A stretch of DNA of 34,227 bases, from contig NZ_NFGZ01000033.1 in NCBI RefSeq assembly GCF_002159175.1, positions 1-34,227 of the forward strand, written 5' to 3'. Shown here piece after piece: positions 2,411 through 33,322 of the stretch. Below the pieces are notes generated by a model that searched no databases, was not told the DNA's origin, and was given only the letters and a program-made list of their open reading frames with translations. The DNA comes from Flavonifractor sp. An92. Lineage in GTDB: Bacteria; Bacillota; Clostridia; Oscillospirales; Oscillospiraceae. The position numbers and the translations under genes were made by a program. The stretch's first letter is position 1. Every line of letters begins with the position of its first letter.

Positions 2411-4291
2411 ATGAAATTTCCCTTGGCTCTGCGCGAGCGGACACGCCGCCTGCACTATCCCAAGCTCCCCATCTCCCCCGGACTGGCCGCCTGGCTCTCC
2501 CGGGGGTTCTTCCTGGCCGGTCCGCTGATCTCCTACGTGCTGGTGGAGCTGCTCAACAACAACGACCCCTGGGGCTTTTCCAATTTACAGCTGGCGCTGA
2601 ACCTGGTCTGGTACTACATGGGGGCCATCTTCTTCTACTTTGTCTGGGGCAACCGGGACCGGGCCACCCGCTGGGCCATGTTCCTGGCCTGGGTCATCGG
2701 CATCATCAACAGCTACGCCTTCCGCTTCCGGGGGCGCACCATCTTCCCCAGTGACATCGTCACCATCCGCACCGCCCTGAACGTGGCCGGGAATTACAAC
2801 TACCTGCCCGACCTCACCCAGCTCTTCACCCTGCTGGTGATGGTCCTGTTCCTGGCGGCCCTGGCGCTGCTCCCCACTCCCAAAGAGCGGCAGCCCTTCT
2901 CCTGGAAGCTCTTCATCCCCAGCCAGGCGGCCTGTTTCGCCTTTTTGTGGATGTTCTTCTGTACCAACACCGTCTCAGATGCGGGGATCTCCCCCTCCAT
3001 GTGGACCACCCGCGGAAATGGCCTGGCCCTCAACTTCTCCCTGTGCGTGCGGTACAGCTGGGTCCAGCCCCCCAGCGGCTACTCCACCGTGTCGGTGGAC
3101 GCCCTGGCGGAGGAGTACCCCTCGGACGACGCCGCGGTGGAGACCTCCGGCGGCATCACCCGGCCGGTGAACCTCATCGTCATCATGAATGAGTCCTTCT
3201 CCGACCTGAGTGTCCTGCCCGGGGTGGAGACCAACCAGGACGCCATGCCCTTCCTCCGCTCCCTGGAGGAGAACACCATCAAGGGCTACGCCTACTCCTC
3301 GGTGTTCGGCGGCACCACCGCCAACTCGGAGTATGAGTTCCTCACCGGCAACACCACCGCCTTCCTCCCCGCCGGCACGGTGCCCTACCACATGTACATC
3401 AGCTCCAATGAGCCGGGTCTGGCCCGGCAGATGGGGGATCTGGGCTACTACACGGTGGCCATGCACCCCTACTACTCCTCCGGCTGGAACCGGGTGGCGG
3501 TGTACAACGACATGGGCTTTGACGAAAAGCACTTCCTGGAGGACTTCACCTACGACGAGGACGAGGATATCATCCGGGAATACCTCTCCGATCAGGCCAA
3601 CTACGAAAATGTCATCGCCCGCTATGAGGCCAAGGAGGAGGGGCAGCCCCTGTTCCTCTTCAACGTGACCATGCAGAACCACAGCGGCTACACCGGCGAG
3701 TGGACCAACCTGCCCCGGGAGGTGTGGCTCACCGGCGACATGGAGGGCAAGTACGACACGGTGGACCAGTACCTGAGCCTCATTTACCAGAGCGATCAGG
3801 CCTTTGAGTACCTCATCGACTACTTCTCCCAGGTGGAGGAGCCCACCATGATCTGCCTCTTCGGCGACCACCAGCCCCAGGTGGACGGCGATTTCTACAC
3901 CGAGACCCTGGGCGAAGAGGTGGACTTCCTGGCCCCCGACGTGGCGCAGAAGAAGCAGATGGTCCCCTTCCTCATCTGGGCCAACTACGACATCCCCGAG
4001 CGGGAGCGGGTCTCCCTCTCCCTCAACTACCTGTCCGCCTACCTCACCGAGGTGGCGGGCCTCCCCCAGACCGGGTATCAGCAGTACCTGAAGGACCTCT
4101 GGCAGGAGCTGCCCATCGTGAACACCGTGGGCTATGTGGACGGCGAGGGCAACTGGGTCCACACCAGCGACGAGGAGAACCTCTCCCCCACCGCCCAGAC
4201 CGCCCTGGACGAGTACAAGCGGGTCCTGTACAACAACATCTTTGACAAGGGACGGCGGCCGTCGGATTTCTTCACCCTGGCCTCGCCCTGA
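2411..4291 (+). CDS. LTA-synthase-family phosphoglycerol transferase / sulfatase-fold membrane enzyme
   Basis: This enzyme (626 aa) most likely transfers glycerol-phosphate from phosphatidylglycerol to an envelope polymer or lipid outside the cell. The N-terminus has five hydrophobic helices (within about residues 20-190), followed by an extracellular sulfatase-fold domain. LtaS-type active-site residues are present: Glu261 in MNESF, the nucleophile Thr303 in GGTTANSE, His in QNHSGY, and Asp486-His487 in FGDHQPQ. The ATG at 2411 is preferred over in-frame codons upstream because it follows AGGAGAGG at 2399-2406 and lies downstream of a clear promoter. It is monocistronic, ending at a strong hairpin. 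The exact polymer (lipoteichoic acid or another phosphoglycerol acceptor) cannot be decided. Confidence 0.88.
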   Translation: MKFPLALRERTRRLHYPKLPISPGLAAWLSRGFFLAGPLISYVLVELLNNNDPWGFSNLQLALNLVWYYMGAIFFYFVWGNRDRATRWAMFLAWVIGIINSYAFRFRGRTIFPSDIVTIRTALNVAGNYNYLPDLTQLFTLLVMVLFLAALALLPTPKERQPFSWKLFIPSQAACFAFLWMFFCTNTVSDAGISPSMWTTRGNGLALNFSLCVRYSWVQPPSGYSTVSVDALAEEYPSDDAAVETSGGITRPVNLIVIMNESFSDLSVLPGVETNQDAMPFLRSLEENTIKGYAYSSVFGGTTANSEYEFLTGNTTAFLPAGTVPYHMYISSNEPGLARQMGDLGYYTVAMHPYYSSGWNRVAVYNDMGFDEKHFLEDFTYDEDEDIIREYLSDQANYENVIARYEAKEEGQPLFLFNVTMQNHSGYTGEWTNLPREVWLTGDMEGKYDTVDQYLSLIYQSDQAFEYLIDYFSQVEEPTMICLFGDHQPQVDGDFYTETLGEEVDFLAPDVAQKKQMVPFLIWANYDIPERERVSLSLNYLSAYLTEVAGLPQTGYQQYLKDLWQELPIVNTVGYVDGEGNWVHTSDEENLSPTAQTALDEYKRVLYNNIFDKGRRPSDFFTLASP

Positions 4292-23141: not shown

Positions 23142-24221
23142 ATGACCCAGAGGGAGCGCGAGATCCTCAACTGGATCGCCGAGAACCCCCTGATCTCCCA
23201 GCAGGAGCTGGCGGACAAGGCGGGCATCACCCGCTCGTCGGCGGCGGTCCACATCTCCAACCTGATGAAAAAGGGCTACATCATGGGCAAGGGCTACATC
23301 GTCCGCACCGCCCCCTACGCTGTGGTCATCGGCGGGGTCAACATGGACATCGGCGGCCGTCCCGCCGGGAAACTGGTCCCCCATGACTCCAACCCCGGCA
23401 AGGTGCGCATGAGCCTGGGCGGCGTGGGCCGCAACATCGCCCACAACCTGGCCCTGCTGGAGGTGGACGTCCGCCTCTTCACCGCCTTCGGGGACGACCT
23501 GTACGCCCAGAAGATCGCCGCCTCCTGCGGTGAGCTGGGCATCGACATCTCCCAGTCCCTCCAGGTGCCCGGCGCGGCCACGTCCACCTATCTCTTTATC
23601 GCCGATGAGGCGGGCGACATGGCGGTGGCCGTGTCCGACATGGACATCTATGACCACATCACCCCCCACTGGCTTGCCTCCCGGCAGGCCCTGCTGGACA
23701 ACGCCCAGCTCATCGTCTTTGACACCAACATCCCGGCGGACAGCATCGCGTGGCTGGCTGAACACGCCAAGGTCCCCCTCTTTGCCGACCCGGTGTCCAC
23801 CGCCAAGGCGGAAAAGCTCCGGGGCGTTCTGGGAAAACTCCACACCCTCAAGCCAAACCGCCTGGAGGCGGAGCTCCTCTCCGGCGTGACCATCACCGAC
23901 CGGGCGAGCCTGGACCGCTGCGCCGACGTGCTGCTGGGCACCGGGCTGCGCCGGGTGCTCCTCTCCCTGGGGGGCGAGGGCATCTACGCCGCCGACCACC
24001 AGGACCGGGTGCTCCTCCCCTGTCTCCCCGGCCAGATGGTCAACACCACCGGCTGCGGCGATGCCGCCATGGCCGCGGTGGCCTGGGCCTATCTGGAGGG
24101 CACTGACCTGCGGGACACCGCGCTGGCCGCGCTGGCCGCCGGGTCCATCGCCATGGAGAGCGCCGAGACCATCAATCCGAATCTGAATCCCCGGGCCCTG
24201 AAAACACGGGCCGGTCTGTAA
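23142..24221 (+). CDS. psuK: Pseudouridine kinase with N-terminal winged-helix domain (PfkB family)
   Basis: This 359-aa protein joins an N-terminal helix-turn-helix of about 55 residues (TQREREILNWIAENPLISQQ and following, then KKGYIMGKGYIV) to a PfkB sugar-kinase domain. The kinase shows GGVNMDIGG at the substrate site, SLGGVGRNIAHNLALL, and the catalytic NTTGCGDAAMA anion-hole motif. In the pseudouridine pathway PsuK makes pseudouridine 5'-phosphate, the substrate of PsuG. The psuG gene begins 37 nt downstream, which supports the call. AGGAGG lies 7 nt before the ATG at 23142. The HTH fusion is known in YeiI-like kinases and could give autoregulation. Confidence 0.88.
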   Translation: MTQREREILNWIAENPLISQQELADKAGITRSSAAVHISNLMKKGYIMGKGYIVRTAPYAVVIGGVNMDIGGRPAGKLVPHDSNPGKVRMSLGGVGRNIAHNLALLEVDVRLFTAFGDDLYAQKIAASCGELGIDISQSLQVPGAATSTYLFIADEAGDMAVAVSDMDIYDHITPHWLASRQALLDNAQLIVFDTNIPADSIAWLAEHAKVPLFADPVSTAKAEKLRGVLGKLHTLKPNRLEAELLSGVTITDRASLDRCADVLLGTGLRRVLLSLGGEGIYAADHQDRVLLPCLPGQMVNTTGCGDAAMAAVAWAYLEGTDLRDTALAALAAGSIAMESAETINPNLNPRALKTRAGL

Positions 24222-24258
24222 GAAGAATATCAATACTCATTTTATGGAGGTATGCAGC

Positions 24259-25185
<927 letters not shown>

Positions 25186-25193
25186 TCCTGTTT

Positions 25194-25229
25194 CCGGCTC
25201 CCGCCTCTCCGGCGGGGGCCGGTTTTTTT
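25194..25229 (+). terminator. Intrinsic terminator of psuK-psuG
   Basis: A 12-bp stem with one G-U pair (25194-25205 with 25211-25222) and a 5-nt loop is followed by seven T residues. Confidence 0.88.
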
Positions 25230-25242
25230 GCCAAATTGGCTC

Positions 25243-25270
25243 TTGCTATTCCAGGATTTTCTGTTATACT
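25243..25270 (+). promoter_or_regulatory. Promoter of the structured RNA and hyd operon
   Basis: TTGCTA (25243-25248) is 16 nt from TATACT (25265-25270), preceded by TGT (extended -10). Transcription should start near 25277. No second promoter is visible before the TM1266 gene. Confidence 0.7.
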
Positions 25271-25276
25271 TATGAG

Positions 25277-25480
25277 TATAAATTCCTGCGTACCGAGGGG
25301 ATGTACCCGAGGACAACGGAAGGCAAAATGCAAACTGTACTGACCGGAAGGGGGTTCTCCCCTCCTGACGGGTAAGGCAGCGGGCACCCACCACAAAGCG
25401 GCTTTGGGCTTTTTATAACCTCTGCCGCCTGGTTCTGCGTCCCTCGCCCCGGTACAGGAGTACCGGGGCGTTTGTTTTTT
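25277..25480 (+). ncRNA. Structured leader RNA or small RNA upstream of the hyd operon, class unknown
   Basis: This 204-nt gene-free stretch begins at a good promoter and ends at a strong terminator. By eye it folds into a rod: CGAGGGG 25294-25300 with 25440-25446, AGGAC 25310-25314 with GTTCT 25432-25436, GGC 25322-25324 with GCC 25424-25426, CTGT 25335-25338 with GCAG 25377-25380, ACC with GGT, and a tip hairpin 25346-25365. There is a large 3'-side internal loop. Two near copies, GTACCGAGG (25290-25298) and GTACCCGAGG (25303-25312), can each compete for the terminator's 5' arm. It could be a riboswitch or attenuator for the hyd genes. The rod with a central bubble also fits a 6S RNA. I do not recognise a known riboswitch core. 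Confidence 0.55.
25445..25480 (+). terminator. Strong intrinsic terminator before the TM1266 gene
   Basis: A perfect 11-bp stem (25445-25455 with 25460-25470) with an AGGA tetraloop is followed by TTTGTTTTTT. It stands 16 nt before the AAGGAG ribosome site, so readthrough or antitermination is needed to express the hyd genes. Confidence 0.9.
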
Positions 25481-25510
25481 GCTGAGATCTGCACAGAAGG
25501 AGCGATTTGT

Positions 25511-25771
25511 ATGGAAAACCGCATCGCCGTCATCGGCATCATCGTGGAGAACCCCGAGGCCACCGAGCAGCTCAATTCCATCCTGCACGAGTATGGGGAG
25601 TACATCGTGGGCCGCATGGGTATCCCCTACCGTCCCCGCAGCCTGCACATCATCAGCATCATCATCGACGCCCCCACCGAGGTCATCAGCGCCCTTTCGG
25701 GCAAGCTGGGGATGCTGGAGGGCGTGTCCGCCAAGGCCACCTACTCCAAAGCCCCCGCTCATGGGGAATAA
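25511..25771 (+). CDS. TM1266-type putative regulator of the iron-only hydrogenase system
   Basis: This 86-aa ferredoxin-fold (ACT/NikR-like) protein matches the TM1266 family, named for its frequent place beside hydrogenase maturation genes. Visible features are the starting strand RIAVIGIIVENPEA, the loop HEYGEYIVGRMGIPYRPRS, and the closing strands HIISIIIDAP and VSAKATYSKA. The ATG at 25511 follows AAGGAG by 8 nt. It overlaps hydE by 11 nt. A ligand-binding regulatory role is proposed for the family but not established. Confidence 0.88.
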   Translation: MENRIAVIGIIVENPEATEQLNSILHEYGEYIVGRMGIPYRPRSLHIISIIIDAPTEVISALSGKLGMLEGVSAKATYSKAPAHGE

Positions 25772-26735
25772 CCCCGCCCTCTCCGCCGGAGAGCTGGAGG
25801 AACTGCTGGCGCTGGAGGATTTTTCGCCGGTCTACCGCCGGGCCAACGAGGTGCGGCGGGAACAGGTGGGGGACACGGTCCATATCCGGGCCATCCTGGA
25901 GTTCTCCAACGTGTGTAAGCGCAACTGCGCCTACTGCGGTCTGCGCGCCGCCCATGCGGGGGTGGAGCGCTACCGCATGACGCCGGAGGAGATGGTGGAC
26001 ACCGCTGTGGAGGCCCACCGGGCGGGCTACCGCACCCTGGTGATGCAGTCGGGGGAGGACCCCTGGTACACCCCCGAGCTTTTAGGGCAGATCGTTCGCG
26101 AGATCAAGGCCCGCACCGACATGGCTATCACCCTCAGCTGCGGAGAGATGAGCAAGGCCGATTACGCCCACCTCCGCGCCTGCGGGGCGGACCGGTACCT
26201 CCTCAAGCACGAGACCGCCGACCCGGAGCTCTACGCCACCCTTCACCCCGATGGCACCCTGGAAAACCGCCTGCGGTGCTTAAGGGATTTAAAAGCCCTG
26301 GGATACGAGACCGGCGGCGGGTTCATGGTGGGCCTGCCGGGACAGACCAACGCCACGCTGGCCCAGGACCTTCTCACCCTGGCCTCCATCCCCTGTGACA
26401 TGGCGGGCATCGGGCCCTTCCTCCCCCATCCGGATACCCCGCTCCGGGGCTCCGCCCCCGGCAGCACCGAGGTCACCAAGCGCTGTGTGGCCCTCACCCG
26501 GCTGCTGCTGCCCCGGGCCAATCTCCCCGCCACCACCGCCCTGGGGGTGCGCAGCGCCGGAGAGAAGAGCGACGTCTTTTCCTGCGGGGCCAACGTGGTC
26601 ATGCTGAAGGTGACCCCCACCTGCTACAAGCGCAAGTATGAGATCTATCCCGCCCCCCTGCCCGACACCCACATCGCCCAGCAGCGCCGCACGCTGGACG
26701 AGCAGATCCGGGCCCTGGGGCGCATCCCCTGTTGA
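25761..26735 (+). CDS. hydE: [FeFe]-hydrogenase H-cluster maturation radical SAM enzyme HydE
   Basis: This 324-aa radical SAM enzyme takes part in building the dithiolate bridge of the H-cluster. The 4Fe-4S site Cys52-x3-Cys56-x2-Cys59 (CKRNCAYC) is followed by typical HydE segments: GYRTLVMQSGEDPWYTPELL, CGADRYLLKHETADPELY, GGGFMVGLPGQT and GIGPFLPHPDTPL. Its ATG at 25761 lies inside the TM1266 gene and has no clear Shine-Dalgarno, so coupled translation is likely. It is the first of three consecutive maturases. Confidence 0.94.
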   Translation: MGNNPALSAGELEELLALEDFSPVYRRANEVRREQVGDTVHIRAILEFSNVCKRNCAYCGLRAAHAGVERYRMTPEEMVDTAVEAHRAGYRTLVMQSGEDPWYTPELLGQIVREIKARTDMAITLSCGEMSKADYAHLRACGADRYLLKHETADPELYATLHPDGTLENRLRCLRDLKALGYETGGGFMVGLPGQTNATLAQDLLTLASIPCDMAGIGPFLPHPDTPLRGSAPGSTEVTKRCVALTRLLLPRANLPATTALGVRSAGEKSDVFSCGANVVMLKVTPTCYKRKYEIYPAPLPDTHIAQQRRTLDEQIRALGRIPC

Positions 26736-26765: not shown

Positions 26766-28184
26766 ATGGCTTATAATGTGAAATCCATGGTCGCCACCGA
26801 GTTCATCGATGACGCCGAGATCCAGGAGACCCTGGCTTACGCCGCCGCCCACAAGAACGATCGCGCCCTGGTGGAATCCCTGCTGGAGCGGGCCAAGGAC
26901 TGCAAGGGCCTGACCCACCGGGAGGCCGCTGTGCTGCTGGAGTGTGACGACCCCGAGCTCATCCACAAGATGGAGACCCTGGCCATGGAGATCAAGCAGA
27001 AATTCTATGGCAACCGCATCGTCATGTTCGCCCCCCTGTACCTGTCCAACTACTGCGTCAACGGCTGCCGCTACTGCCCCTACCACGGCCAGAACAAGCA
27101 CATCGCCCGGAAAAAGCTCACCCAGGAGGAGATCGTCCGGGAGGTGGTGGCCCTTCAGGACATGGGCCACAAGCGTCTGGCTCTGGAAACCGGCGAGGAC
27201 CCGGTGCGCTGCCCCATCGAGTACGTGCTGGAGAGCATCAAGACCATTTACGGCATCAAGCACAAGAACGGCGCCATCCGCCGGGTGAATGTGAACATCG
27301 CCGCCACCACGGTGGAGAACTACCGCAAGCTCAAGGAGGCCGGAATCGGCACCTACATCCTCTTCCAGGAGACTTATAACAAGAAGCAGTACGAGTACCT
27401 CCACCCCACCGGCCCCAAGAGCAACTACGCCTACCACACCGAGGCCATGGACCGGGCCATGGAGGGCGGCATCGACGACGTGGGCTGCGGCGTGCTGTTC
27501 GGTCTGAACCTCTATAAGTACGACTTCGTGGGCCTGCTGATGCACGCCGAGCACCTGGAGGCGGTCCACGGCGTGGGCCCCCACACCATCAGCGTGCCTC
27601 GGGTGCGCCGGGCCGACGACATCGACCCCGACGAGTTCGAGAACGGCATCACCGACGCCCTCTTCCAGCAGATCGTGGCCATCCTGCGCATCGCCGTGCC
27701 CTACACCGGCCTCATCATCTCCACCCGTGAGAGCAAGGAGTGCCGGGAAAAGGTCCTCCGCCTGGGCGTGTCCCAGATCTCCGGCGGCTCCCGCACCAGC
27801 GTGGGCGGCTACGCCGACGGCGGCGAGGAGGAGGACTCCAGCCAGTTCGAGGTCAGCGACAACCGCACCCTGGACCAGGTGGTGAACTGGCTGCTGGACG
27901 GCGGATACATCCCCTCCTTCTGCACCGCCTGCTACCGGGAGGGCCGCACCGGCGACCGCTTCATGAAGCTGTGCAAAAGCGGCCAGATCGTCAACTGCTG
28001 CCACCCCAACGCCCTGATGACCCTGAAGGAGTACCTGGAGGACTACGCCTCCCCCGACACCTATAAGAAGGGCATCGCCCTCATCGAGCGGGAGATCCCC
28101 ACCATCACCAACCCCAAGGTCCGGGAGACCGTGCTGCGCCACCTGAAGGACATGGACGGCGGCATGCGGGACTTCCGCTTCTAA
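26766..28184 (+). CDS. hydG: [FeFe]-hydrogenase maturation radical SAM tyrosine lyase HydG
   Basis: HydG (472 aa) cleaves tyrosine and supplies the CO and CN ligands as an Fe(CO)(CN) unit. The SAM cluster is Cys97-x3-Cys101-x2-Cys104 (CVNGCRYC). The C-terminal auxiliary cluster motif CX2CX22C is intact at Cys386, Cys389 and Cys412, which distinguishes HydG from ThiH. The ATG at 26766 follows AAAAGAGGT. It lies 30 nt after hydE and 13 nt before hydF. Confidence 0.96.
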   Translation: MAYNVKSMVATEFIDDAEIQETLAYAAAHKNDRALVESLLERAKDCKGLTHREAAVLLECDDPELIHKMETLAMEIKQKFYGNRIVMFAPLYLSNYCVNGCRYCPYHGQNKHIARKKLTQEEIVREVVALQDMGHKRLALETGEDPVRCPIEYVLESIKTIYGIKHKNGAIRRVNVNIAATTVENYRKLKEAGIGTYILFQETYNKKQYEYLHPTGPKSNYAYHTEAMDRAMEGGIDDVGCGVLFGLNLYKYDFVGLLMHAEHLEAVHGVGPHTISVPRVRRADDIDPDEFENGITDALFQQIVAILRIAVPYTGLIISTRESKECREKVLRLGVSQISGGSRTSVGGYADGGEEEDSSQFEVSDNRTLDQVVNWLLDGGYIPSFCTACYREGRTGDRFMKLCKSGQIVNCCHPNALMTLKEYLEDYASPDTYKKGIALIEREIPTITNPKVRETVLRHLKDMDGGMRDFRF

Positions 28185-28197
28185 GAAAGGAGTTCCC

Positions 28198-29379
28198 ATG
28201 AGCCTCACCCAGACCCCCCAGGCCGAGCGGCTCCACATCGCCCTGTACGGCAAGCGCAACGCGGGCAAGTCCAGCCTCATCAACGCCCTTACCGGCCAGC
28301 CGGTGGCTCTGGTGTCCGATGTGGCGGGCACCACCGCCGATCCGGTGCGCAAGGCCATGGAGCTCCACCCCATCGGCCCGGTGCTCTTCATCGACACCGC
28401 CGGGTACGACGACGTGGGCGAGCTGGGCGCGCTGCGGGTGGAGGCCACCCAGGAGACCCTGGAGCGGGCCGACGTGGCCCTGCTGGTGCTGTCCGCGCCC
28501 CCCACGGCGGAGGACCTCACCTGGGCCGACGCGCTGCGGAAGAAAAAGATCCCCTTCCTCACGGTCTGCAACCAGGCCGACCGGTGGGACGATCCCCTCT
28601 CCTCCCTCCCCGACGAGCTCCGGGAAAATGCCGTAGCGGTGAGCGCCCTCACCGGCGACGGTATCGAGGACCTCCGCGCCGCCCTGGTGCGCCTCATCCC
28701 CGAGGGCTTCCAGCAGCCGGAGCTCACCGCCCGGCTGGTGCAGCCGGGGGACACAGTGCTGCTGGTGATGCCCCAGGACATCCAGGCCCCCAAGGGGCGG
28801 CTCATCCTCCCCCAGGTGCAGACCATCCGGGACCTGCTGGACCGCACCTGCACGGTGGTGTGCACCACGGCGGGTGGGCTCCAAAACGCCCTCTCCGCCC
28901 TCGCTCAGCCCCCCAAGCTCATCATCACCGACTCCCAGTGCTTCCCCCAGGTGGCCGCCGCCAAGCCGGAGGAGAGCCTGCTCACCTCCTTCTCGGTGCT
29001 CTTCGCCGCCTACAAGGGGGACATCGAGGCCTTCGTGGCCGGGTCGGCTGCCATCGACGCCCTGACGCCCAACAGCCGGGTCCTCATCGCCGAGGCCTGC
29101 ACCCACGCCCCGCTGGAGGAGGACATCGGCCGGGTGAAAATCCCCGCCCTCCTGCGCAAGCGGGTGGGGCAGTCTCTCCAGGTGGACGTGGTGGCGGGAA
29201 CCGGCTGGCCCAGCGATCTGAGCCCCTACGACCTCATCATCCACTGCGGGGCCTGCATGTTCAATCGGAAATACGTTCTCTCCCGCCTGGCCGCCGCCCA
29301 GGCCCAGAGCGCGCCCATGACCAATTACGGCGTGGCCATCGCCCGCCTGACCGGAATTCTGGATCAAGTCGTCTGGTAA
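28198..29379 (+). CDS. hydF: [FeFe]-hydrogenase maturation GTPase HydF
   Basis: HydF (393 aa) is the scaffold that carries the H-cluster precursor and delivers it to the hydrogenase. The N-terminal GTPase has G1 YGKRNAGKSS (about residues 17-26), switch-region TT in AGTTADPV, G3 DTAGYDD and G4 NQAD. The C-terminal cluster site has Cys301-x-His303 and His349-Cys350-x2-Cys353 (HCGAC), the family pattern CxH...HCxxC. AAAGGAG lies 6 nt before the ATG. The operon ends at the following terminator; no hydrogenase gene lies nearby. Confidence 0.96.
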   Translation: MSLTQTPQAERLHIALYGKRNAGKSSLINALTGQPVALVSDVAGTTADPVRKAMELHPIGPVLFIDTAGYDDVGELGALRVEATQETLERADVALLVLSAPPTAEDLTWADALRKKKIPFLTVCNQADRWDDPLSSLPDELRENAVAVSALTGDGIEDLRAALVRLIPEGFQQPELTARLVQPGDTVLLVMPQDIQAPKGRLILPQVQTIRDLLDRTCTVVCTTAGGLQNALSALAQPPKLIITDSQCFPQVAAAKPEESLLTSFSVLFAAYKGDIEAFVAGSAAIDALTPNSRVLIAEACTHAPLEEDIGRVKIPALLRKRVGQSLQVDVVAGTGWPSDLSPYDLIIHCGACMFNRKYVLSRLAAAQAQSAPMTNYGVAIARLTGILDQVVW

Positions 29380-32063: not shown

Positions 32064-32711
32064 TCAGATGGGGCCCGCCGCGAAGGCGGCAGGCAGACAC
32101 TCCAGCCCGGGCCGCCCGCCCTTCACGCTCTCCACCAGGACGGCGGAGGGAGCATGGGCGGCGTCATGCTGGAGGAATTGCAGTCGTTTGGGTTCCAGAG
32201 CGGCTCCCCGCAGCCCGGCGAAGAGGTCGGCCAGCCGTTCCGGCCGGTGGACCAGGGCAAAGCGTCCGCCGTGGCGGAGGAGTGCACCCGCCCTGCGGCA
32301 CAGCCCCTCCAGGGTAACTTCCCCCTCCATGCGGGCGGGGTCGCTGCCCTTCCCGGAGCGGGGGGCAAAATAAGGCGGGTTGGACACCACCAGGTCAAAG
32401 ATCCCCAGCGGGAGTGGCGCGGTGGAAAAGTCCCCCTCCAACAGGGTCCCTTCCAGGCCGTTTTCTTGGAAATTGGCCCGGGCGGCGGCCATGGCCTCTC
32501 CACTCAGCTCCACACCGGTGAGGGCAAGAGTGGGCTCCCGCCGGGCCAGCAGCAGGAGCAGCAGCCCCGCGCCGCAGCCCAGGTCGCACACCCGCCAATG
32601 CTTCCGCACCGTGGCGAAGTCCCCCAGGGCCAGAGAGTCCCGGCCCATGGGAAAGCAGCCCTCGGTCCAGGTGTAGCGGAAGGGACCCAGGATCTCACAG
32701 CCCCCCGCCAT
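32064..32711 (-). CDS. TrmN6-like tRNA1(Val) adenine-N6 methyltransferase family protein
   Basis: This 215-aa SAM-dependent methyltransferase has motif I DLGCGAG (residues 43-49) and the N6-adenine catalytic motif NPPY (residues 111-114, in VVSNPPYFAP). The N-terminal segment LGPFRYTWTEGCFPMGRDSLALGDF resembles the YfiC/TrmN6 family, which methylates tRNA1(Val) A37. The start codon at 32711 overlaps the Nudix gene's stop by one base (TGATG), with GGAGGTG upstream. The rsmI gene follows 19 nt after its stop. Confidence 0.85.
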   Translation of the reverse strand: MAGGCEILGPFRYTWTEGCFPMGRDSLALGDFATVRKHWRVCDLGCGAGLLLLLLARREPTLALTGVELSGEAMAAARANFQENGLEGTLLEGDFSTAPLPLGIFDLVVSNPPYFAPRSGKGSDPARMEGEVTLEGLCRRAGALLRHGGRFALVHRPERLADLFAGLRGAALEPKRLQFLQHDAAHAPSAVLVESVKGGRPGLECLPAAFAAGPI

Positions 32712-33322
32712 CAGCCCAGCACCTCCACCAGATGGCGGACGATGCGCCCGGTGATGCCCCAAATGGCCTTCTCTCCCCAGCGGTAGATGGGCACCTCCAC
32801 CCGCCCGGCCCGGAAGGGGTAACCCTGGGGAAAGCCAATGGCCTCGTAGGGAAAATCCGCCCCCGGCCGGGGCTCCAGGGGATAGCTGGGACAGAGGGGC
32901 GCATTCTGGCGGAAAAAGTCCAGCGGCACCCGGAAGGTCTCGGCCACCTCAGCGCTCTGGAGCTTTAATTGCTCCGCCGCCGCGGCGTCCACCACCCCCA
33001 GCACCGGATGGAGGAGAAATCCGCTCTGGTGGAGGAGCACGTCCAGCTCGGCCACCACCTCCACGGCGGCGGCGGGGATGCCCAGCTCCTCCTCCGTCTC
33101 CCGGAGGGCGCAGGCCACGGCGCTCTCCTCCCCTTCCATCCGGCCGCCGGGAAAGCAGACCTCCCCCGGCTGGCGGCGCAGGGTGGAGGCTCGTACCTCA
33201 AAGAGGAGCTCCCAACCGGTGTTCCCCTCGATGAGGGGCACCAGCACGGCGTACTCCCCCGTGACATCCTGGACCCCCGGCGCGCGGCCGGAAAAGGCGG
33301 CGCACAGCTCCGCCCGGGTCAT
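32711..33322 (-). CDS. Nudix hydrolase, CoA pyrophosphatase-like
   Basis: This 203-aa hydrolase has a complete Nudix box at residues 60-82 (G-x5-E-x7-REUxEExGU). The preceding RASTLRRQPGEVCFPGGRMEG is close to the NudL/YeaB signature of coenzyme A pyrophosphatases, which cleave CoA to 4'-phosphopantetheine and 3',5'-ADP. Its ATG (33322) overlaps the upstream stop in an ATGA arrangement, and GGAGGAG lies 5 nt before it. The substrate assignment is by family resemblance. Confidence 0.85.
   Translation of the reverse strand: MTRAELCAAFSGRAPGVQDVTGEYAVLVPLIEGNTGWELLFEVRASTLRRQPGEVCFPGGRMEGEESAVACALRETEEELGIPAAAVEVVAELDVLLHQSGFLLHPVLGVVDAAAAEQLKLQSAEVAETFRVPLDFFRQNAPLCPSYPLEPRPGADFPYEAIGFPQGYPFRAGRVEVPIYRWGEKAIWGITGRIVRHLVEVLG

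Follow-up and report, generated by a model that had tools for sequence, protein, structure and literature searches.

An apparently undescribed, widespread riboswitch-like leader RNA ahead of [FeFe]-hydrogenase maturation genes

What is the gene-free stretch of about 200 nt that runs from a promoter into a strong terminator directly ahead of the [FeFe]-hydrogenase maturation genes of Flavonifractor sp. An92? In the window, i.e. the whole 34,227-nt stretch of DNA analysed here, it is flanked on its 3' side by a TM1266-hydE-hydG-hydF operon and on its 5' side by what is likely a pseudouridine-breakdown pair, namely a PfkB-type kinase with an N-terminal HTH domain (23142-24221) and the adjoining gene of an indigoidine-synthase-A-like protein (24244-25185), the latter followed by a strong terminator of its own (25194-25222). 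Elsewhere in the window, a protein of the chloramphenicol-acetyltransferase fold family (PF00302; 33319-33948, reverse strand) neighbours a NUDIX protein (32711-33319). Here, I propose that this stretch serves the operon as its 5' leader, that it carries a member of a new RNA family and that it works as a feedback-type OFF switch for a small molecule linked to the H-cluster, a reading that I regard as rather probable. The features on which the argument turns are the following.

25243-25270, forward strand: promoter TTGCTA-16-TATACT with TG ahead of the -10 box, the sole promoter-like site found within 25100-25560
25281-25322, forward strand: 5' domain with UUCC/GGAA, a UGC/AAC loop, about 4 bp, a GA/GA loop and a GGG/CCC hairpin; weak score with family model R2
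25335-25342, forward strand: putative antiterminator strand 1, pairing with 25450-25457 when RNA that stops at 25456 or at 25460 is folded to minimum energy
25335-25380, forward strand: candidate aptamer core, from the scores of models R1 and R2 and from covariation
25376-25385, forward strand: putative antiterminator strand 2, pairing with 25439-25448 in the same minimum-energy folds, 25381 and 25445 being bulged
25439-25457, forward strand: left arm, flank and loop of the terminator, the predicted target of the antiterminator (folds)
25445-25480, forward strand: strong intrinsic terminator, an 11-pair stem (25445-25470) followed by a U run (25471-25480, TTTGTTTTTT)
25497-25502, forward strand: Shine-Dalgarno sequence AAGGAG of the TM1266 gene, 16 nt beyond the U run
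25511-25771, forward strand: TM1266-family gene for a putative iron-only hydrogenase system regulator (PF21699, E 9.3e-34; TIGR03959, 117.6 bits)
25761-26735, forward strand: hydE (TIGR03956, 307.4 bits)
26766-28184, forward strand: hydG (TIGR03955, 920.2 bits)
28198-29379, forward strand: hydF (TIGR03918, 532.1 bits)

An earlier note on this DNA had described an extended -10 promoter without a second one in view, a long foldable stretch, a strong terminator and, only 16 nt further, the hyd ribosome site, and had proposed that a 5' segment breaks the terminator stem. The promoter, its singularity, the terminator and the ribosome site are all borne out, and the complementary segments do lie where the note had put them. 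The stability of the 204-nt fold, on the other hand, is unexceptional (z -1.68, 8 of 200 shuffles being equally stable), and the proposed antiterminator does not hold: forcing 25290-25299 to pair with 25441-25444 and 25450-25455 costs 16.7 kcal/mol in the full RNA (-63.0 vs -79.7), the 5' partner is not retained in the related genome G007, and folds of the nascent RNA favour another antiterminator (see below). As for the second near copy of this segment, GTACCCGAGG, which had been credited with the same ability, in the folds it mostly pairs with GTACCG-AGGG itself, giving a hairpin that resembles the core motif described next. The conserved part of the leader is its middle, 25335-25380, which the earlier note had left unmarked.

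By DNA similarity, the leader was found only in the window's own genome and in G007 (2 of 40 relatives; 2 of 10 genomes of the genus), and a search of 50,697 phage records gave no match. G007 was the only relative in which a leader of this type turned up; there it lies ahead of the same gene with 71% identity and retains the terminator stem with one compensatory change, C-G to U-A. The family became visible only on reading the regions upstream of TM1266 genes: within 420 nt of the gene (22 genomes, 23 loci) a motif CUGAC..GGAAGG..CC-UGACGG..AAGG recurs, it could be placed by eye in 15 of the 23 regions, and in several of those leaders it stands just past a -10-like box and is followed by a terminator. 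A covariance model, R1, built from eight leaders with the window and G007 excluded, matches the window with 25.2 bits (E 1.5e-4 in 105,585 bases), and, with a cut-off of E 0.1, the window (E 0.005) is its only match in the genome to which it belongs. Of the leaders kept out of the model, R1 also recovers L052 and, weakly (E 0.03-0.26), L040, L034 and L045, and it picks up extra copies before hydG in L035, L038 and L055. A second model, R2, comes from 41 matches and scores the window's core at 34.2 bits, the window being part of its training set. In L048 and L054 the motif can be seen by eye and has no model score.

The core is a pseudo-symmetric hairpin of about 42 nt, C-UGA-(P1, 3-4 bp)-GA-(P2, loop)-GA-(P1')-RAA-G, in which an outer UGA/RAA loop leads into the short helix P1, which covaries, and this in turn into a tandem GA/GA loop capped by a hairpin, so that two UGA/RAA-like loops flank a short helix and either strand reads roughly CUGA..GAAG. 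The window's version consists of CUGA at 25340-25343, P1 at 25344-25346/25369-25371, the GA/GA loop at 25347-25348/25367-25368, the P2 hairpin at 25349-25366, the UAAGG strand at 25373-25377 and the outer pair C25340-G25376. The 3' box is RAAG with G or A as the next base, and the RAAG strand is nearly invariant; CUGA is present in all 41 rows of alignment A8 and in 32 of the 42 rows of A10, where eight others have CUAA. A kink-turn reading of the window's hairpin was dropped, most aligned members being without a 3-nt bulge there.

Three alignments, fitted to a model that favours its own pairs, bear on the fold. A8 (41 rows, E 0.15) leaves out five of 46 matches, namely the antisense L071 and L072, the short partial L037, and the true-looking L045 and one copy of L057; 93.4% of its pairs are standard, with 60 double-change cells and changes on both sides in seven of eight pairs, and its covariation score of 0.55 (0.17 shuffled) is reached by none of 500 shuffles. 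A9 comprises all 45 rows from named loci, including the antisense L145 and two rows that are not independent, L091 (its DNA is that of training locus L079) and L103 (some 89% to L061/L062), and is 95.6% paired with a score of 0.82 vs 0.22. With L091 and L103 removed and L145 kept, A10 holds 42 matches from 78 named loci, sequences on which the model had not been built, which are 95.9% paired, contain 105 double-change cells and score 0.83 vs 0.23, slid strands attaining at most 0.18. Two of five measures give no excess over shuffles in A9 and A10, one being the number of pairs with a double change (244 and 231 of 500 shuffles) and the other the number of further pair types (114 and 346 of 500), and the outer C-G pair, being invariant, is uninformative by covariation. 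The leader thus has a conserved, covarying domain in the 5' UTR whose score and paired cells lie far above those of shuffled and slid alignments, the two count measures excepted, and the existence of the RNA family and of its fold is, on comparative grounds, close to certain.

The genes behind the RNA belong mainly to one pathway, H-cluster assembly. Across the order, R1 alone (295 genomes, E 0.1) gave 47 matches in 44 genomes; among the best 30 of the 47 loci, 24 lie ahead of TM1266 (22), hydE (one) or hydG behind a small acetyltransferase gene (one), a set that includes the R1 training leaders L056 and L059 and the window itself (L083), and six (L076, L077, L080, L082, L084, L085) look false, sitting in or beside unrelated coding sequence. 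Across the class, R2 (392 genomes, E 0.01) gave 37 matches in 36 genomes, 34 of them ahead of TM1266, hydE, hydG or aspA-hydF; the exceptions are L169, which stands behind hydE where the contig stops short of the gene that would come next, the SsuABC-like transporter locus L186/L198, and the false match L180 inside a coding region. Across the phylum, 12 matches were found in 11 of 358 genomes, of which 11 precede hyd genes (two already known) and one (L294) looks false. Along the same line, R2 at E 0.5 on both strands of 80 named TM1266 loci (597 kb) returned 45 matches, 44 on the coding strand, 32 of these at a distance of 19-213 nt from the TM1266 gene that follows and 12 immediately ahead of hydG, as identified by tblastn. 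Carriers among the named records are Anaerotruncus colihominis DSM 17241, Sporobacter termitidis, Desulfosporosinus hippei and Lutispora saccharofermentans, and two further records bear the labels Alphaproteobacteria bacterium and proteobacterium. The distribution of the family is not universal: at the strict threshold, 36 of the 392 class genomes have a match, vs 242 with TM1266 and 247 with HydG, and a coding-strand match is present in 37 of the 80 named loci, some of which end short upstream.

Some copies are arranged otherwise. The RNA occurs in tandem before TM1266 in L075 (1459-1539), the first copy being the weaker (16.8 bits), and extra copies stand directly before hydG in L035 (2786-2824), L038 (2786-2825), L112 (5302-5341) and others. 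In L145, a 25.1-bit match (4243-4281, reverse strand) lies opposite to TM1266 at the 3' end of the gene, preceded by a -10-like box; it is perhaps a chance match, an inversion or a real antisense RNA.

How might such a hairpin control the genes behind it? Although part of the core, the RAAG strand pairs with the left arm of the terminator in many leaders. In 15 leaders the switch strand pairs with its own downstream region at -14.4 and with those of other leaders at -12.7 (0 of 300 permutations); in 31 named leaders, i.e. the 44 coding-strand matches less the 12 hydG-type copies, tested apart, and L098, which lies 19 nt from TM1266, the figures are -12.4 and -9.8 (0 of 5000 permutations). Only 3 of the 31 leaders have their own downstream region as the best partner of all, and for 12 it is a poor one (rank 9 or worse of 30), which argues that some leaders use another platform. 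In the copies before hydG, 12 of 12 named ones have the ATG 9-12 nt behind the end of the aptamer, and the AAAGAAAGGA-like strand therefore extends into the Shine-Dalgarno site of hydG. Extra copies placed in this way within a TM1266 operon are a variant of the element that would act on translation. A further sub-type (L108, L120, L133, L204) has a 5' strand, AGUUCUGAA, complementary to UUCAGAAC downstream near the ribosome site, with no obvious terminator, and is perhaps a third expression platform. Mutually exclusive expression platforms are thus found in many members, with 12 of 31 leaders fitting poorly and a small margin in the window. Given that the RAAG strand is needed by the antiterminator or runs into the ribosome site of hydG, a folded aptamer should mean OFF, and it is likely that folding of the aptamer and the availability of the antiterminator or of a free ribosome site exclude each other. 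At the level of the family, then, the main reading of the earlier note, in which [FeFe]-hydrogenase maturation is governed by a riboswitch or attenuator, has the support of covariation, exclusive platform and gene association, whereas the antiterminator strands are other than those it had named.

In the window itself, RNA cut at 25456-25460, which mimics the state with the right arm of the terminator still inside polymerase, folds with 25376-25385/25439-25448 nested inside 25335-25342/25450-25457, and this combination is the favoured antiterminator of the window, as far as minimum-energy models can tell. Its advantage over the fold in which the aptamer is forced is small, 0.6-4.0 kcal/mol (-62.3 vs -61.7 at 25456, -66.4 vs -62.4 at 25458 and -66.4 vs -65.2 at 25460), and in the full RNA, with the right arm out, terminator plus aptamer is best (-79.7 vs -68.6). 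The CUGUAC/GUACAG part of the antiterminator also folds in G007, at two of five lengths. Comparison of the hyd upstream regions of relatives, which the earlier note had suggested as a check on both alternative stems, shows covariation for the aptamer core; for the antiterminator of the window type, known from two genomes only, what it shows is sequence conservation of this part, as distinct from covariation. By duplex energy, the best partner of the AAGG strand in the window is 25418-25430, away from the terminator; as a switch this pairing was rejected, for, stable though it is (-76.7 with 25422-25426 forced), it leaves the terminator untouched.

The 5' domain (25281-25322) scores 7.2 bits with R2 (E 0.076 in 321 nt, filters off), its G007 counterpart having no meaningful score. 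A core-like shape, with an outer stem, a 3x3 loop, about 4 bp, a 2x2 loop and a hairpin, is taken up by the 5' domain in several folding intermediates of the window and in two of five G007 folds. The domain may, tentatively, be a degenerate tandem copy of the aptamer.

Readings other than a riboswitch-like one have to be weighed. A 6S RNA with readthrough into the hyd genes, the alternative the earlier note had offered, would account for a promoter, about 200 structured nucleotides and a terminator, yet the window has no 6S match at the gathering score and this stretch none up to E 5, the genome's own 6S RNA (RF00013) is matched with 76.2 bits on another contig (G000:C32), and the conserved element is one of 42 nt tied to hyd genes; I regard this alternative as practically untenable. 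Very improbable, too, is a leader-peptide attenuator that would use the 24-codon frame from the ATG at 25301 to the TAA at 25373-25375, or a similar ORF: the frame does span the aptamer in the window, but its ATG is not retained in G007 (GGGGATGTACCC vs GGGAGCAGTCCC), and in several relatives (e.g. L035, L037, L039, L041, L042) the motif starts within about 20 nt of the -10 box, which leaves little room. The small size of the core (42 nt), and switch pairings that would respond to any change in hairpin stability, could also befit an RNA thermometer, an ion- or redox-sensitive element without specific effector, or an element for processing or stability of the hyd mRNA. Such readings are improbable in view of the strong conservation beyond the covarying pairs (CUGA or CUAA, GA/GA, RAAG) and of the same core in two different platforms, both of which point to specific recognition.

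Recognition could be by a protein. In that case the leader would be a protein-responsive attenuator whose hairpin is bound by a probably oligomeric protein, with TM1266, autoregulating, as the first candidate. TM1266 is annotated as a putative regulator; in 22 of the 24 hyd loci of the order, and for 32 of the 44 coding-strand matches (a set chosen by TM1266), no other gene comes between it and the RNA; and a search found it in 32 of the 35 class genomes whose RNA match is true, vs 242 of 392 overall; the two-fold pseudo-symmetry of the RNA would suit a dimer, and a structure of a family member exists (2nzc), filed as hypothetical protein. However, three genomes (G328, G487 and G672; 97, 93 and 86% complete) have the RNA before hydG and no TM1266 found at E 1e-3, and many TM1266 genes are without the RNA, 43 of the 80 named loci having no coding-strand match at E 0.5. 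On this evidence a protein effector is possible and, in the form just given, unlikely. As effector of the proposed OFF switch, a small molecule connected with the assembly of the H-cluster is the most likely choice, and direct sensing of it by the RNA would seem the better bet.

The genes behind the RNA go beyond TM1266, hydE and hydG. In two genomes (L195, L197) it stands ahead of aspA-hydF, a position that fits with PMC11736057, according to which AspA has a link to hyd operons and is able to provide the dithiomethylamine bridging ligand with its nitrogen. Other copies precede transporters: the RNA of L198 (G457) lies before an SsuABC-like transporter, that of L196 before a TM1266-like gene, an NMT1-type ABC transporter and a further protein gene, and those of L199 (G413), L200 (G365) and L203 (G434) before a TM1266-like gene and then the substrate component of an ECF transporter. 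The last-named protein of L196 is presumably RidA-like, and I take the further genes to be of the hnd type in L199 and L200 and CobT-like in L203. In G413 and G365, the RNA also has a hydrogenase gene (PF02906) close by on its upstream side. As for the maturases, within the 35 class genomes whose RNA match is true HydG was not found at E 1e-60 in G365, G378, G413, G434 and G457, and HydE and HydF were also not found at E 1e-40 in G365, G413 and G434, where hydrogenase domains are present; G457 (L198) and G378 (L202) have HydE and HydF, the RNA of L202 preceding hydE-hydF. Lack of maturases is not special to RNA carriers, since G384, whose RNA match is false, likewise has hydrogenase domains with none of HydE, HydF, HydG and TM1266 found. 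Neither HydG nor TM1266 was found in every genome with the RNA; a molecule made or needed in H-cluster assembly, perhaps imported in some organisms, would fit this best.

The proposed mechanism would run as follows. With the aptamer folded, RAAG would be locked in the core, allowing the terminator to form in many TM1266 operon leaders and masking the Shine-Dalgarno site in hydG leaders; with the aptamer open, the RAAG strand would pair with the left arm of the terminator, or the ribosome site would stay free. An effector that stabilises the aptamer would turn the H-cluster assembly genes OFF in the manner of a feedback riboswitch, and it would be a small molecule that belongs to H-cluster assembly, or is connected with it, and binds the RNA directly. 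A more specific version, a riboswitch class that senses a product of H-cluster assembly, e.g. the HydG/HydE iron-carbonyl-cyanide synthon or a by-product, and shuts the whole assembly regulon, is doubtful but worth entertaining; that regulon comprises hydE, hydG, hydF and aspA, plus candidate importers in certain genomes for which the search found no HydG, or none of the three maturases.

Is the family already known? The Rfam covariance search that the earlier note had called for found no Rfam 15 family at the gathering score in the whole window or in 18 related loci; up to E 5 this stretch has six weak matches, all under the cut-off and to unrelated families, and of three stretches scanned below threshold, two have weak matches, again to unrelated families, and one has no match. 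Spot 42 and SdsR (24.5 and 26.5 bits; E 0.01 and 0.0078) were rejected, being under their gathering scores of 80 and 38 and resting largely on the G+C-rich terminator. Full-text searches found no riboswitch or RNA motif tied to hydE, hydG or TM1266, unnamed entries in candidate lists, above all those of PMC8040213, being possible, and 'riboswitch' together with 'H-cluster' gave 0 papers. The main texts of PMC11109978, PMC8040213, PMC6429828, PMC8632094 and PMC2864571 are without hydrogenase, hydG or, where asked, TM1266. Within the reach of Rfam 15 and of this literature search, the RNA thus appears to be an undescribed, widespread cis-regulatory family of a known general kind, a riboswitch-like leader.

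Several known systems invite comparison. Small-molecule OFF riboswitches share with it the 5' leader, the compact conserved aptamer, a 3' strand that an antiterminator or ribosome site also uses, genes for biosynthesis and transport behind it and a tandem case; what differs here is the missing Rfam family at cut-off, the pseudo-symmetric double UGA/RAA fold and the H-cluster pathway. Protein-binding attenuators of the HutP/TRAP kind also have a leader in which either a terminator or an antiterminator forms, and in the present case the gene of a small putative regulator lies next to it; points of difference are the covarying structured hairpin and the three carrier genomes in which TM1266 was not found. 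6S RNA has in common a structured transcript of about 200 nt with promoter and terminator, and differs as described above. The Moco RNA motif is reported, in PMC5651825, upstream of a hydrogenase cluster in Eubacterium limosum, and so has metal-cofactor regulation and an occurrence before a hydrogenase cluster in common with this RNA, but the window and the 18 related loci have no Moco match.

If the reading is right, [FeFe]-hydrogenase maturation, which lets many anaerobes make or use H2, would be under direct RNA control by a sensor that is not in Rfam. Should an H-cluster product indeed be sensed, this would be, to my knowledge, the first RNA to read out the synthesis of an organometallic cofactor. 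Aptamers of about 42 nt from named carrier species make the ligand question directly approachable with compounds of the pathway, and the occurrence of the RNA before transporters in G457, G365, G413 and G434 renders the idea of an imported precursor testable. Moreover, the regulon flags genomes that have [FeFe]-hydrogenase domains and in which HydG, or HydE, HydF and HydG together, were not found. To sum up, the family occurs in gut and other anaerobic bacteria, where it would switch these genes off, perhaps when a product of the pathway is plentiful.
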